Below, piece after piece: positions 15,291 through 59,946 of a stretch of DNA of 64,000 nucleotides. Positions within the stretch are counted from its first letter, which is position 1. The number at the start of each line of letters is the position of its first letter. The notes beneath the pieces were generated by a model, which was not told the DNA's origin, did not search any database, and saw only the letters and a list, made by a program, of their open reading frames with translations. Origin of the DNA: Planctomycetaceae bacterium (lineage in GTDB: Bacteria > Planctomycetota > Planctomycetia > Pirellulales > Pirellulaceae). The stretch covers positions 1-64,000 of the forward strand of contig PBSM01000059.1 of the NCBI GenBank assembly GCA_002726245.1, given 5' to 3'. A program made the position numbers and the translations under genes.

Positions 15291-15378
15291 GTAGGCCGGA
15301 ACAAGTCCGCGCAGCTCCGGCAGGTGATTGCGCAAGAACGCGGTGCTGCCGGAGCTGCGCGGACTTGTTCCGGCCTAC
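15291..15378. repeat. Perfect 32-bp-stem palindrome between convergent genes
   Basis: Arms 15291-15322 and 15347-15378 are exact reverse complements; the loop is 24 bases. The arm begins GTAGGCCGGAACAAGTCC. It lies between the ends of the VWA gene (+) and the lipoprotein gene (-), where it could stop transcription from both sides. A 32-bp perfect stem is far longer than a rho-independent terminator needs, and no T-run follows either arm. Confidence 0.85.
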
Positions 15379-31710: not shown

Positions 31711-32160
31711 CAGTCCCGTAGGGACGACAGGTGATAGCCTGGGGCGCGAGCCCCAGGAACCGTTACGCTCCCCAAGCCCAAAGCTCCGAAGGCCCTCCGG
31801 GGCTTACCGCCCTGACTTAGCTGATCCTGGAACTGACGCCCTTGTTGTTTTGCATAAGTCTGCCGGCCGGATTCGCCCCGAAGGGGCTGCGACATGTCAG
31901 GCCAGGGCAGAGCGCAGCGCCGCCCTGGATTGGAAGGCGATGAACGCGAGAGCCCTGAAAGGGCAAAACAAATGGGGCGGCGTCCAACTAGCATGTTGTT
32001 TCGCCCTTTCAGGGCTTGCGAACATGGTGTTCGTCTACCCAGGGTGGCGCTGCGCTCTGCCCTGGCCTGGCGTGTTCCTGACCCTTCGGGCCGACTTGTG
32101 TACAACAACAAGGGCTTACGTCCCAGGCTATTACATGCCGCCGCTCGGCGGCTATCGGCG
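31711..32160. repeat. Composite intergenic element, copy 1
   Basis: Fills the whole gap between two operon genes. Reading +, the modules are: a GTCCCGTAGGGAC-type end, hairpin CCTGGGGCGCGAGCCCCAGG, a degenerate CTCCGGGG-type module, a 278-bp near-palindromic core (31838-32115), and GCCGCCGCTCGGCGGC. The outer modules are in the opposite orientation to copies 2 and 3, while the core has the same orientation as in copy 2. It begins 2 bases upstream of the GTG of the cyclase-like gene and ends about 14 bases from the DUF4175 stop. Confidence 0.85.
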
Positions 32161-36184: not shown

Positions 36185-36208
36185 GAGGTACTACATTCGG
36201 TCGGATTG

Positions 36209-36285
36209 TCGTTTAACCGCAAGCCGGAGGCGTGCGCTTCGGCACGCTGCCAGGAAGCGCACGCCTCCGGCTTGCGGTTAAACGA
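36209..36285. repeat. Palindrome, GTTTAACC family copy 1
   Basis: Arms 36209-36239 and 36255-36285 are perfectly complementary over 31 bp; the loop is 15 bases. The arm reads GTTTAACCGCAAGCCGGAGG onward. A second copy of the same family is at 59869-59941. It sits in the short gap between two genes of the minus-strand operon, so transcription must pass through it if the operon is continuous. Confidence 0.85.
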
Positions 36286-38677: not shown

Positions 38678-38705
38678 TATATTAAGTATCCGTGGCTTCC
38701 TCAAA

Positions 38706-38827
38706 GTAGCCATCACGCTCCGCGTGATGAAAGCGGACGTAAAATCGACTTCACCCTATCAAAGCCGTTTGTTGCATTGAACGTTGTTCGCCGCGCCGCG
38801 TTTCATCACGCGGAGCGTGATGGCTAC
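38706..38827. repeat. Perfect 27-bp inverted repeat with self-complementary arms
   Basis: Arms 38706-38732 and 38801-38827 are exact complements; the spacer is 68 bases. Each arm itself folds (CATCACGCTCCGCGTGATG), so the DNA or RNA can form either one long stem or two short hairpins. The right arm's last bases encode the stop codon of the BatA-like gene (38824-38826). Confidence 0.85.
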
Positions 38828-40968
38828 ATTGCCTTCGCCCTCCCGAAGCTCCAGGCCAAGACGGTTTCAATGACTAGCAACACGATCATGCAAGTTAGCA
38901 TCGAGCGAAACAAAGACACCGGATTCTCGGAAGCTTCTCGAACCACAACGGACTCATCGCTCGCGAACTCGGCAAGTAATTCGCGATCGATGGCTACTAG
39001 GTCGCTCTCCTTCGTATCGAGATTCGCGGCAAACCGTTCACTACGATTCGTCGTTGCCTGCGCGGCTCGATAGACGCCGCTTTGAGTTGTCTCGGCGAGA
39101 CTCCAGCCAGTTTGGTTGATTTCGTCCGGCCGAATCTCGATGCCATCGGGACACTGCAGCGAGAAGTCATCTTCCGCCTCGTCAGCGAGAAAGCGAGATG
39201 CGAGTCCTTCGCCGACAATAATGTTGCGACGGTCCTGCATCCCCTTGGTCGCAAAATGCACAAGTTCGTGGACCAGCGGCGGGAAGCTCGGCCAAGCAGG
39301 CAGGGCGTTCCACGGTGTTGTGCCTTCGTCGGACGTGTTGACCGATTCCGGCGATAACGCCGTTGAGACAACAACGACTCGGCCGCGCCCAAACGTCGAA
39401 GCAACAATCGCCGGTTCATTGTTGCCGAATCGAAGTGCGACCTCCGCTTCCTCGGCTAATTTGTCGAACTGCCAATAGCTCCACACTGGGACCGTCAACA
39501 AACCTGCTCGCTGGTGGCCGCGGAACGGCTTGACAAGCGGATGCTCATATCCGTCAGCAACAAAGTAACGCGGCTCGCCAGTCGTAACGCTTTTGAGCAT
39601 AAGCGGGAGTAGCGGCCTGTCGTCAGCCGCACTCAACTGGTCGTTGTACGAGTTTGCATTGACAATATCTCCCAACGCGACAACAAGTCCACCACCTGAT
39701 GCGACATAGTCTCGCAACACCGTTGCTTCCGTCGGCCCAAGTCGCGCGACGTTACACATGAAAACACAGTCGTACGCGTGAAGATCCTTTTCGAGCAACG
39801 CGTATTCGGAAACGACTTGCACTTGTCGCGGCATCGCGGTTTCGTCCGAAGGATTCAGGGCCAACGCGACATAAGCGGCCGCGTTAAGCTTGCCTTCGAT
39901 ACATAGAACGCGAATTGTTTCGCGCACGGGCACGATCAGCCAACGTGAATCATCGACGCTCAACCCGTCGGAGGACAGCCGGGCCACCATCTCTCGATCG
40001 CCAGGCACGTCAATCTGCTGGTTGAACGAAACGCCTGCACGAGCACTCGCGGCGACATTGACGTGCTTCTCACCAACCTTCCGTTCATCGACGAATAACT
40101 CGATGCGTTTCTGGTTCTCGTTCGCCGCGCCAGCATTCTCGATCTCAACGTGGATCGCGAACGCTTCGCCGCCGACGACCGCGCGGCCGTCCGTTTCGAT
40201 ACGAGTCACCGCGAGATTGTTCGCTTTAACGCTGCCGGTGTGCAGGAACTCTAACGTGGCAAGGTTGTTCAAGTCATTCAGTTGTTGGCGGCACTCCGGA
40301 GTTGTGGCTGCCTGCCAAGTCGTACGACCGAGGTCGGTTAAGAACTCGACGCGTCGGTCCAAAAAGCGAGATTGTGATTCCGCGACCGCGTTCAACAAGT
40401 TCGCGACTTCGTGCAACGTCGGTGACAAGTCCGCGCCCGCGTGAGACAGCTCCAACTTGTCGATCTCATCGACTATGGCAGCATGATTGGCGGATGGCTG
40501 CGCAACGACCACGCTTGGCGGTTCGGATAGCGTCACCAGTGCAAATGCATCACCTGGCTTGGCACGGCGCACACTGTCCGTAGCGAGTTGCGTCGCATGC
40601 TCGAAACGGCTCCGTCCCTTTTCCTGAAAGCCCATGGAGTAGGAAGTGTCGATCACAAGCACGGTAAAGCGAGGAGGTTCGTCCGTCGTCGTGGTGCCGA
40701 TCGGCCAGCCAGATAGCATCGGCTCGGCTAACGCGATTGCCAGCAGCACTAAGACGAGCACGCGGATGGCGAGTAAGAGCATCTGCTCGACGGTAAGCCG
40801 GCGTTGATGTTTGCGGATCGCGGCGAGAAGGAACTGCGTTGCCGCCCACGCTTCGTCTTGATATCGCCTGCGGCTCCAGAGATGAATCGCAACCGGAATC
40901 GCAACCGCAGCCAGCCACGGCAACATCCACGGGCTTGCGAACGACCAAACAGCCAACAGTATCATCAC
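38824..40968 (-). CDS. BatA-like protein with VWA domain
   Basis: 714 residues. The N-terminal BatA motif is clear: SPWMLPWLAAVAIPVAIHLW with two helices, then a VWA domain with TVLVIDTSYSMGFQEKG (DxSxS). A linker of beta strands and a GATase-like domain follow (YDCVFMCNVARLGP, VASGGGLVVALGDI). A final helix (FRSMLTCMIVLLVIETVLAW) completes the protein. BatA-type proteins occur downstream of MoxR/DUF58; the complex they form is not known. The stop lies in the right arm of a palindrome. Confidence 0.85.
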   Translation of the reverse strand: MMILLAVWSFASPWMLPWLAAVAIPVAIHLWSRRRYQDEAWAATQFLLAAIRKHQRRLTVEQMLLLAIRVLVLVLLAIALAEPMLSGWPIGTTTTDEPPRFTVLVIDTSYSMGFQEKGRSRFEHATQLATDSVRRAKPGDAFALVTLSEPPSVVVAQPSANHAAIVDEIDKLELSHAGADLSPTLHEVANLLNAVAESQSRFLDRRVEFLTDLGRTTWQAATTPECRQQLNDLNNLATLEFLHTGSVKANNLAVTRIETDGRAVVGGEAFAIHVEIENAGAANENQKRIELFVDERKVGEKHVNVAASARAGVSFNQQIDVPGDREMVARLSSDGLSVDDSRWLIVPVRETIRVLCIEGKLNAAAYVALALNPSDETAMPRQVQVVSEYALLEKDLHAYDCVFMCNVARLGPTEATVLRDYVASGGGLVVALGDIVNANSYNDQLSAADDRPLLPLMLKSVTTGEPRYFVADGYEHPLVKPFRGHQRAGLLTVPVWSYWQFDKLAEEAEVALRFGNNEPAIVASTFGRGRVVVVSTALSPESVNTSDEGTTPWNALPAWPSFPPLVHELVHFATKGMQDRRNIIVGEGLASRFLADEAEDDFSLQCPDGIEIRPDEINQTGWSLAETTQSGVYRAAQATTNRSERFAANLDTKESDLVAIDRELLAEFASDESVVVREASENPVSLFRSMLTCMIVLLVIETVLAWSFGRAKAM

Positions 40969-41104
40969 TCACCTCGCTTGCGACGCATCGGCCGAACAAT
41001 TGCCGTCGCATACACCACGACCGGGCACTCGCTAGTCGGTTGGTCCAGATCGACCGCGGAGTGTTCGACGACAGTAAGTGATTGGAGACTGCTAACGCGT
41101 TGGT

Positions 41105-41584
41105 CTTCAGCCGCGTAGCGGCGGCAGCTAATCGCCTGGGGCGTAAGCCCTCGTTGTTTTACACAAGTCGGCCGGCCGGATTCGCCCCGAATGGGCCGCG
41201 ACATATCAGCCCAGGGCAGAGCGCAGCGCCGCCCAGGGGTGGAAGGCGATGAACGCGAGAGCCCTGAAAGGGAGAAACAAATGGAGCAGCGTCCAGCGAG
41301 CATGTTGTTTCGCCCTTTCAGGGCTTGCGAACACGGTGTTCGTCTACCCAGGGCGGCGCTGCGCTCTGCCCTGGGCTGGTGTGTTTCTGACCCTTCGGGC
41401 CGACTTGTGTACAACAACAAGGGCGTAAGCCCCAGGTGCGTTGTCGGAACAAAACCAAAGCCCCAGAGGGGCGACACCGAAGAAGCCCAACGTGACAGTG
41501 TCGCCCCTACGGGGCTTAGTGCGTATGGCTGCGACGATTCCTGGGGCTTACGCCCCAGGCTATTACATGTCGTCCGTACCGGAC
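41105..41584. repeat. Composite intergenic element, copy 2 (filled)
   Basis: Fills most of the 680-base gap between the BatA-like and DUF58 genes. Order: a GCGGCGGCAG end, hairpin GGGGCGTAAGCCC interrupted by a 278-bp palindromic core (41147-41424), GCCCCAGAGGGGCGAC with its partner GCCCCTACGGGGC, hairpin CCTGGGGCTTACGCCCCAGG (41540-41559) and GTCCGTACCGGAC. A 12-bp direct repeat GGGCGTAAGCCC flanks the core at 41139-41150 and 41421-41432. The rest of the gap (40969-41104, 41585-41648) shows nothing I recognise. Frames running through it are not genes. Confidence 0.85.
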
Positions 41585-41648: not shown

Positions 41649-42572
41649 TCACCTCGACTGCCTGGTCATGGAGGTTCGACTCGTCAGGAACGCGGCCAGA
41701 GCGACATCGAGTGGCTGCTCGGTGGTGAGCAATCGATAGTCGATCTCGTTGTCTAAGCAACCGCGTTTGATTTGCGCGAGGAAGCGATCGACTTCGGCTC
41801 GATAGCCCGAACGGATGGAATGAGGGTCGGCCGCAATGTCGGCGGCTCCCTCCATGCCTCGAAAACGCGTTGGCACATCGAATGGTAGTTGCAGTTCGGC
41901 CGGATCGAGGAGTTGCAAGACGGCGACATCGTGTTGGCGATGTCGAAGGTGCCGCAAGCCGGACAGGACGCTCCCTGGCTCGTCGAAGAGATCGCTGATA
42001 ATCAAGACGATGCCGCGTTTCGTCATCTTCTGTGACAGCTCTCGGAACACATTACCGACCGAGGTCTTGTCGCGCGGCGATGCGTTCTCCATGACCGACA
42101 GCAAACTGGCGAGATGGGATGCGTTGCTGCTCGGCGAGACGGTGTCGCGAACTTCCCAATGAAACGTCGCGAGCCCAACGGCATCCTGGCGTTGAAGCAC
42201 GAGCCAAGCCAGCGATGCAGCGATGCATTGCGCGTATTCCAGCTTCGACATCGCGGAATTCGGGCCGCGATAGGACATGCTCTCGCTGACATCCAGCAGG
42301 AGATAGCAAATCAGATTTGTTTCGTCTTCGTACTGCTTCAAGTAGTACTTGTCGGTCCGCCCGAAGACCTTCCAATCGAGATAACGCAAGTCGTCGCCAG
42401 GCGCATACTCGCGGTGCTCGGAGAACTCGACGGAGAACCCGCGATACGGACTGCGATGAGCGCCGGAAATAAAACCTTCGACGATGCGACGAGCCCGCAG
42501 TTGCAATCCTTTGAGCTTAGCCAGCGTCTGCGGATCTAAAGACTTGGGGGAGTTGTCCACGCCCGTCTTCAT
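41649..42572 (-). CDS. DUF58 domain protein
   Basis: 307 residues. The DUF58 hallmark lies at residues 45-75 (FSEHREYAPGDDLRYLDWKV), followed by LLLDVSESMSYRGPNSAMSKL, a VWA-like DxSxS motif, and KRGIVLIISDLFDEPGSVLSG. No membrane helix is seen, so it is probably cytosolic, unlike the other VWA proteins here. DUF58 proteins act with MoxR AAA ATPases. It starts inside the 3' end of moxR (56-base overlap), which points to coupled translation. Confidence 0.9.
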   Translation of the reverse strand: MKTGVDNSPKSLDPQTLAKLKGLQLRARRIVEGFISGAHRSPYRGFSVEFSEHREYAPGDDLRYLDWKVFGRTDKYYLKQYEDETNLICYLLLDVSESMSYRGPNSAMSKLEYAQCIAASLAWLVLQRQDAVGLATFHWEVRDTVSPSSNASHLASLLSVMENASPRDKTSVGNVFRELSQKMTKRGIVLIISDLFDEPGSVLSGLRHLRHRQHDVAVLQLLDPAELQLPFDVPTRFRGMEGAADIAADPHSIRSGYRAEVDRFLAQIKRGCLDNEIDYRLLTTEQPLDVALAAFLTSRTSMTRQSR

Positions 42573-58550: not shown

Positions 58551-58601
58551 AATTGTTCACCAAGCGTTCGTAGGACAGGTCGCAACCTCGTTACCCACAT
58601 C

Positions 58602-58800
58602 TTCAGCCACGGAGCGGCGGCAGATAATAGCCTGGGGCGTAAGCCCCAGGTAGGTGAGGAACTACAGCCGAAGCCCCGAAGGGGCGACATAGATGATTGT
58701 GGGCTGCGGGCCATAGCGCCCCTCCGGGGCTTTGGTTGTGGTTCTGACACACGTTCCTGGGGCTCACGCCCCAGGCTACTGTGTGTTGTCCCTACGGGAC
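58602..58800. repeat. Composite intergenic element, copy 3 (empty)
   Basis: Modules as in copy 2 but without the 278-bp core: GCGGCGGCAG end, hairpin CCTGGGGCGTAAGCCCCAGG (58631-58650), GCCCCGAAGGGGC and GCGCCCCTCCGGGGC, hairpin CCTGGGGCTCACGCCCCAGG (58756-58775), and CCCTACGGGAC. Lies between the two separate cupredoxin genes. The flanks 58551-58601 and 58801-58858 show nothing recognisable. Confidence 0.85.
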
Positions 58801-59626: not shown

Positions 59627-59946
59627 GTTGTTACATCTCCTCGTTCGGCTCTGCGGGCTCCGCCGAGAACCGAGAATTGGGGCAGGCGGGGTTCGCCTGC
59701 AATGGATCGCCCGCTTCCAGGGGCGGCTTCGGGTGTGAGGCCGCGTCGTCTGCTTTACCACGATGCGACCGACAAGGTAGGACACATCAGTATAAGTAAG
59801 CAGCGGCTACGTTGCATGGTCTCACAACCCAAATGCAATCCTGTACTCTCGCAACTCCTGTCGTTCTCGTTTAACCACAAGCCGGAGGCGTGTGCTTCGG
59901 CAGCGCTGGAAGAAGCGCACGCCTCCGGCTTGCGGTTAAACAGTTG
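59627..59946. other. Intergenic gap with palindrome
   Basis: 320 bases between the cupredoxin gene and the multihaem gene. It contains a short hairpin (GCAGGCG at 59682-59688 with CGCCTGC at 59694-59700) and the larger palindrome annotated at 59869-59941. No gene is seen. Confidence 0.5.
59869..59941. repeat. Palindrome, GTTTAACC family copy 2
   Basis: Arms 59869-59897 and 59913-59941 pair over 29 bases with two mismatches; loop 15 bases. The arm sequence matches copy 1 (36209-36285), and the loops are also related (CGGCACGCTGCCAGG and CGGCAGCGCTGGAAG). It is six bases from the stop of the multihaem gene. Confidence 0.85.

Follow-up and report, generated by a model that had tools for sequence, protein, structure and literature searches.

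A probable MITE with Tn5-like ends opens the tip of a REP-type hairpin in a Planctomycetaceae bacterium

A 272-bp palindromic unit (the core) that interrupts a repeated hairpin in the genome of a Planctomycetaceae bacterium is, in all probability, a non-autonomous, MITE-like transposon that carries ends of the IS50/Tn5 group and was moved in trans into the tip of a REP-type hairpin. The window, meaning the whole stretch of DNA that was analysed, comprises 64,000 nucleotides (positions 1-64000 of contig C59) of a host genome of 7.6 Mb that is assembled in 356 contigs and is 89% complete. Three copies of the outer repeat lie in this window, of which the first two (copies 1 and 2) contain the core, leaving only copy 3 empty. 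Their features are as follows.

Copy 1
31831-31840, plus strand: decayed target duplication, left, AACTGACGCC
31841-32112, no strand: element of 272 bp, about 91% identical to copy 2
32113-32122, plus strand: decayed target duplication, right, GGCTTACGTC, 6 of 10 positions matching the left

Copy 2 (41104-41559)
41104-41134, plus strand: left part of the outer REP-type repeat (GCCGCGTAGCGGCGGCAGCTAATCG), common to copy 3 (58600 onward)
41135-41139, plus strand: opened outer hairpin, left arm beyond the duplication, CCTGG
41140-41149, plus strand: target-site duplication, left copy, GGCGTAAGCC, 10 bp
41150-41421, no strand: inserted non-autonomous element (MITE-like core), 272 bp
41150-41169, plus strand: left terminal inverted repeat, CTCGTTGTTTTACACAAGTC, 20 bp
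41182-41238, plus strand: interior REP-type hairpins, left arm (GCCCCGAATGGGCC; CCCAGGGC..GCCGCCCAGGG)
41260-41327, no strand: interior central hairpin (AGCCCTGAAAGGG ... CGCCCTTTCAGGGCT)
41347-41403, minus strand: interior REP-type hairpins, right arm
41402-41421, minus strand: right terminal inverted repeat (CTTGTTGTTGTACACAAGTC on the minus strand)
41422-41431, plus strand: target-site duplication, right copy, GGCGTAAGCC
41432-41436, plus strand: opened outer hairpin, right arm, CCAGG
41540-41559, no strand: second hairpin of the outer repeat, intact (CCTGGGGCTTACGCCCCAGG)

Copy 3
58600-58780, no strand: outer repeat in the empty state, with the hairpins at 58631-58650 and 58756-58775 both intact

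The core of copy 2 contains neither a gene nor a transposase, and it begins with C (CTCGTT..) and finishes with G (..AACAAG). A first-pass annotation had described a 12-bp direct repeat, GGGCGTAAGCCC, on both sides of the core, and this sequence is found exactly at 41139-41150 and 41421-41432. Its reading as a target duplication holds, but the length must be revised to the 10 bp of GGCGTAAGCC, because the terminal C and G of the element happen to match the hairpin bases that flank the duplication and thereby add one chance base per side. Joining 41135-41149 to 41432-41436, which removes the core and one duplicate, yields CCTGGGGCGTAAGCCCCAGG, the very sequence that stands uninterrupted at 58631-58650 in copy 3. 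Thus, as the annotation had proposed, copy 2 is the copy 3 hairpin opened by the core. The terminal repeats of the aligned and oriented core copies read CT(C/T)GTTGTTNTACACAAGTC. We rejected a delimitation that assigns GCCC/GGGC to the terminal repeats and leaves a 4-bp GTAA duplication, as the elements of genomes G147 and G098 and the core copy L007 all start with CTCGTT and lack GCCC.

Both the hairpin and the core are dispersed in the host genome. The exact 12-mer GGGCGTAAGCCC occurs 60 times in the 7.6 Mb, and the 20-bp hairpin CCTGGGGCNNNNGCCCCAGG is found in 89 places when up to 2 mismatches are allowed; the reversed controls give 0 in each case, so this repeat pattern is not due to chance. 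About ten hairpins of the outer type are filled. The genome holds approximately 11 copies of the core, consisting of the two in the window and about nine elsewhere, most with 77-93% identity. The base at the junction is identical in nearly all of them. Copy 2 is the only complete copy in this genome with a perfect duplication (10/10); the match is 9/10 in L002 and 8/10 in both L004 and L010, and the duplications of the others are decayed. Loop sequences agree within a copy and vary between copies (GTAA/GTAA in copy 2 and L002, TGAC/TGAC in L010).

Empty sites were sought with copy 2 as the query, using its left part up to base 51 and its right part from base 322. At 16 other loci, copy 3 among them, the two parts match adjacent stretches that overlap by exactly 12 bases, as predicted for an empty site. 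The proposal that copy 2 arose by insertion is thus borne out by 16 related empty sites with exact junctions in the same genome and by 89 core-free hairpins. It also accords with core copy L007, which is situated away from the standard hairpin, with CCTCTTGTC on one side and CCTCGTGTC on the other, and has an imperfect duplication of its own (8/9). The filled and empty sites together represent a true footprint of transposition, of a type that is known in broad terms.

Several other arrangements were seen among these repeats. L007 (C292:14963-15307) appears to be internally duplicated, as a further fragment of the terminal repeat is present about 72 bp upstream. L006 (C213) and L009 (C244) carry a near-identical left flank, GGAGCCGCAACCAAAACAACGCC, which is another dispersed repeat and suggests that a larger compound unit moved or recombined. 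At C38:19205-19426 (L117), a hairpin (CCGGGGGCGTGAGCC followed by CTTGTTGTCTTACACAAGTC) is opened by a lone left end, and the contig stops before any right end appears. Within the window, a separate dispersed hairpin family is represented by two copies of a palindromic repeat with arms of 30-32 nt (GTTTAACCGCAAGCCGGAGGCGTGCGCTTC; 36206-36285 and 59864-59941). A perfect inverted repeat at 15291-15378 (33-nt arms, 22-nt spacer) is possibly a terminator or another palindromic repeat, and the 31-nt arms of a further inverted repeat at 38702-38831 are 97% complementary and 68 nt apart.

Copy 2 is flanked by two minus-strand genes, a DUF58 gene at 41649-42572 and a BatA/VWA gene at 38824-40968. The spacer separating these genes is 680 bp here, about 36 bp or less in nine relatives (with one overlap) and 128-803 bp in four. 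The entire cluster of REPs plus core is extra material in an often tight gene pair, because the spacer is mostly 36 bp or less in the more distant relatives. These spacers are uninformative on the core alone.

The ends of the core recur on longer elements that encode a transposase. A search of 241 genomes of the family for terminal repeats recovered pairs about 1.55 kb apart, and elements of about 1.55-1.57 kb with the ends of the core are present in G147 (13 elements), G141 (one) and G015 (one), with a related one in G167, all of these genomes belonging to other genera. Copy 2 matches the ends of these elements at 17-18 of 19 positions on the left and 16-17 of 19 on the right; beyond the 20-bp ends, the core and the autonomous elements have nothing obvious in common. 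The two terminal inverted repeats of an autonomous element match each other at 17-19 of 19 positions, and the duplications span 9-11 bp, most commonly 10 bp. Each of the 13 elements in G147 measures 1559 bp counted from CTC to GAG, an equality of length which suggests that they may have been active recently.

The transposases of the autonomous elements that were read comprise about 440-480 residues. Two of them were scanned and match the Tn5 DNA-binding domain (PF14706, 1e-15), the Tn5 dimerisation domain (PF02281, 1e-12) and a DDE domain (PF01609, 4e-7), and the NCBIfam model NF033590 (3.5e-98) places them in the IS4 family. One transposase compared with the PDB aligns with Tn5 transposase (1mus, E 9e-29), with conservation of the catalytic D, D and E and of the Y-R-E-K spacing of Tn5. 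Judged by these domains and by their ends and duplications, the autonomous elements are assigned to the IS50/Tn5 group of the IS4 family. The ends resemble the outside end of Tn5, agreeing with it at 14 of 19 positions. An IS231-like origin of the core (the targets of IS231 have the form GGGN5CCC) was dropped when the transposase proved to be Tn5-like.

Transposases of this type (E <= 1e-60) occur in 30 of 240 genomes of the family. At the same threshold, no intact matching transposase was found in the host assembly, which is fragmented and 89% complete. Only two matches to the Tn5-type DNA-binding domain are present there, on C190 and C4, both in apparently broken genes and with no recognisable ends nearby. 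It is possible either that the partner transposase has been lost or that it is absent from the fragmented assembly. Multicopy IS elements are often missing from such assemblies, and a MITE usually, but not strictly necessarily, shares its genome with the cognate transposase.

The autonomous elements also resemble the core in their choice of target. Most elements in G147 reside in GCCGGT[GGC N4 GCC]ACCGGC, for example in CCGGT[GGCTGACGCC]ACCGG with a 10-bp duplication. Of the more distantly related elements in G137, five of six reside in CCTGG[GGC N4 GCC]CCAGG, for example in CCTGG[GGCTCGCGCC]CCAGG, which is the hairpin type of the window itself (CCTGGGGC..GCCCCAGG). Several elements in G027 are found in CATG[GGC N4 GCC]CATG, and an independent 492-bp element of G098 with the same kind of ends lies in CCCC[GCGTTTACGC]GGGG and, like the core, is made up of hairpins in its interior. 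Across 42 insertions with clean duplications, some of which are in related repeat copies and so do not represent 42 independent choices, the arms of the reconstructed targets pair at 44.5% of positions, compared with 25.8% for random nearby positions (s.d. 1.7, maximum 31.9% in 2000 draws). The preference for palindromes is uneven, as evident by the fact that it is clear in G147, G137, G027, G214 and G020 and, with this centring, absent for the elements of G006 and G071, which mostly have 11-bp duplications and different ends. The automated end-finder mis-set the ends at a few loci (e.g. L156, L216, L234, L236-L238), and the pairing statistics draw solely on loci whose duplications are clean. 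At two loci, the duplications are inverted rather than direct: GGCGTAAGCC and GGCTTACGCC at L146 (G015:C145:30700-32693) and GGCGTCAGCC and GGCTGACGCC at L159 (G147:C1:9778100-9780400), each 10/10 when inverted. Perhaps these reflect quasi-palindrome correction or recombination between copies.

The first-pass suggestion of a non-autonomous unit therefore gains support from elements of about 1.55 kb in other genera that bear both matching ends and a transposase, and that likewise target hairpin tips with duplications of 9-10 bp. Because its ends and its hairpin targeting match those of Tn5/IS50-type insertion sequences, the core is best read as a MITE-type element mobilised in trans. The core is short and transposase-free, shares its ends with an autonomous element, and exists as dispersed copies with target-site duplications; its insertions fall at a constant point within a repeated extragenic palindrome.

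In the mechanism that we propose, an IS50-group transposase supplied in trans would bind both ends of the core and excise it. The core would then be inserted at the tip of a REP-type hairpin that abounds in the genome, where GGC(N4)GCC forms a symmetric target, and 10 bp would be duplicated. The transposase would presumably recognise this palindrome in its double-stranded form and not as an extruded cruciform. We infer this mobilisation in trans in the present lineage, as well as the direction of events and the acquisition of the interior, whose REP-rich sequence may derive from a RAYT/REPIN unit.

The interior of the core has affinities of its own. It is composed of the hairpins GCCCCGAAGGGGC, CCCAGGGC..GCCCTGGG and AGCCCTGAAAGGGC, arranged in inverted order about a centre, and on contig C262 of the host a RAYT-like Y1_Tnp gene (PF01797, 5e-22) is enclosed by these inner hairpins, which keep the order that they have in the core; the gene is located between hairpins matching the central hairpin of the core (41260-41327). 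This gene is likely, but not proven, to encode a RAYT, because the dedicated REP-transposase model (NF047646, REP_Tyr_transpos) gives a score of 28 bits and has a cut-off of 80. A second Y1_Tnp gene, on C131, is preceded at a distance of about 75 bp by the outer hairpin. An interior-like unit that lacks the ends of the core is present on C321 of the host genome, and sequences related to the interior occur widely across the family. The overall structure is therefore nested, with REP-type hairpins within a Tn5-like-ended element that itself lies within another REP-type hairpin.

Could a REP-associated tyrosine transposase have moved the whole core as a REPIN, with the duplication being incidental? 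The interior hairpins that flank the Y1_Tnp gene on C262, the unit on C321 and the family-wide occurrence of related interior sequence all speak for such a history. However, target duplications are not known for tyrosine (HUH) transposases of the RAYT kind, and the core is associated with 10-bp duplications and has DDE-type ends that match Tn5-like insertion sequences. Even if the interior has a separate history, a unit bounded in this way acts like a DDE element, and we regard movement of the entire core by a RAYT as very unlikely. We consider it just as improbable that, in the modular exchange also raised by the first-pass annotation, homologous recombination has shuffled REP hairpins as modules, such that the direct repeats are simply two hairpin tips that bracket another block of hairpins. 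The interior and the outer repeat do both consist of REP-type hairpins, and the long left flanks common to L006 and L009, which are not the standard hairpin, indicate that recombination occurs among these repeats. Modular exchange does not account, however, for transposase-specific 20-bp ends that recur on insertion sequences of about 1.55 kb in other genera, for a junction base that is constant in nearly all copies, for 16 empty sites that overlap by exactly 12 bases, or for loops that match within a copy even as they differ between copies.

Replication slippage, which the first-pass annotation had offered as another source of the repeats, or template switching in the quasi-palindrome is the least credible account of the two GGCGTAAGCC units and strikes us as extremely improbable. 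Each repeat is indeed a small hairpin, the 302-nt unit at 41135-41436 has a very strong predicted fold as single-stranded DNA (z = -16.75), and the inverted duplications at L146 and L159 could reflect template switching in long palindromes. However, slippage cannot yield transposase-specific 20-bp ends, nor can it introduce a dispersed 272-bp repeat with conserved ends, and it leaves unexplained both the constant junction at many loci and for intact insertion sequences and the presence of core family members with the same ends at unrelated loci. A different idea, which we offer tentatively and think rather unlikely, is that the core is a hybrid on which two unrelated enzymes can act: the whole would be moved via its ends by a Tn5-like DDE transposase and the interior via its REP hairpins by a RAYT-type tyrosine transposase, so that REPs and REP-targeting insertion sequences would amplify each other.

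Our preferred reading, a MITE mobilised by a Tn5-like transposase, has partial counterparts among known systems. The outer and interior hairpins resemble REPs and REPINs in being short multicopy palindromes, with a Y1_Tnp gene adjoining each type (C131 and C262), but the core differs from these in its DDE-type ends and target duplication, neither of which is known for REPINs. The IS50/Tn5 group is approached in the transposase architecture of the autonomous relatives, in ends of about 19 bp and in a duplication near 9 bp; the elements described here differ in a duplication that is mostly 10 bp and in strongly favouring palindromic REP hairpins that are rich in GC. Insertions of Tn5, by contrast, are described as randomly distributed at large scale, with certain 9-bp sites being preferred (PMC2229646). 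A close precedent is ISRm22 of the IS4 family, all nine copies of which in Sinorhizobium meliloti are in REP palindromes, and whose insertion in REPs has been related to the palindromy of Tn5 targets (Tobes and Pareja, 2006; PMC1525189). The core shares with ISRm22 an IS4-family type of insertion into REPs, with the transposases likened by family only; ISRm22 is autonomous and alphaproteobacterial, whereas the core is a transposase-free unit of 272 bp with an interior of REP-type hairpins. Insertion at a fixed position in a REP/PU palindrome is also documented for IS1397, ISKpn1, IS621, ISPsy8 and ISPpu9/10 of the IS3 and IS110 families (PMC1525189); the transposases of these elements are unrelated to those considered here, and the repeat of ISPsy8 is 3 bp. 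Bacterial MITEs such as NEMIS, Bcr1, Nezha and ERIC (PMC3733652) are likewise short and non-coding, with terminal inverted repeats and many dispersed copies, but the core differs from them by targeting a specific REP hairpin and by carrying REP-type hairpins inside. GTAG-tagged REPs (PMC3733652) and REPINs (PMC3116915) have been described, and REPs in Planctomycetes are already known (PMC3733652). Among the works searched, none was found to describe a MITE that combines IS50-type ends, insertion into REP hairpins and REPs in its interior. Targeting of REPs by the IS4 family is already known from ISRm22, and what is new is the MITE, its interior and the clade of insertion sequences.

These observations point to a way in which an ordinary DDE transposon can transport REP-type palindromes and increase their number, beside the RAYT route that is usually proposed. 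If the hybrid reading is true, REPs would supply the targets and the MITE would spread the REPs. A Tn5-like clade with strong palindrome targeting is also a natural counterpart to Tn5, whose own target choice is weak, and the contrast could reveal the transposase residues that set target specificity. For this group of bacteria, nested hairpin clusters may be explained as successive insertions.
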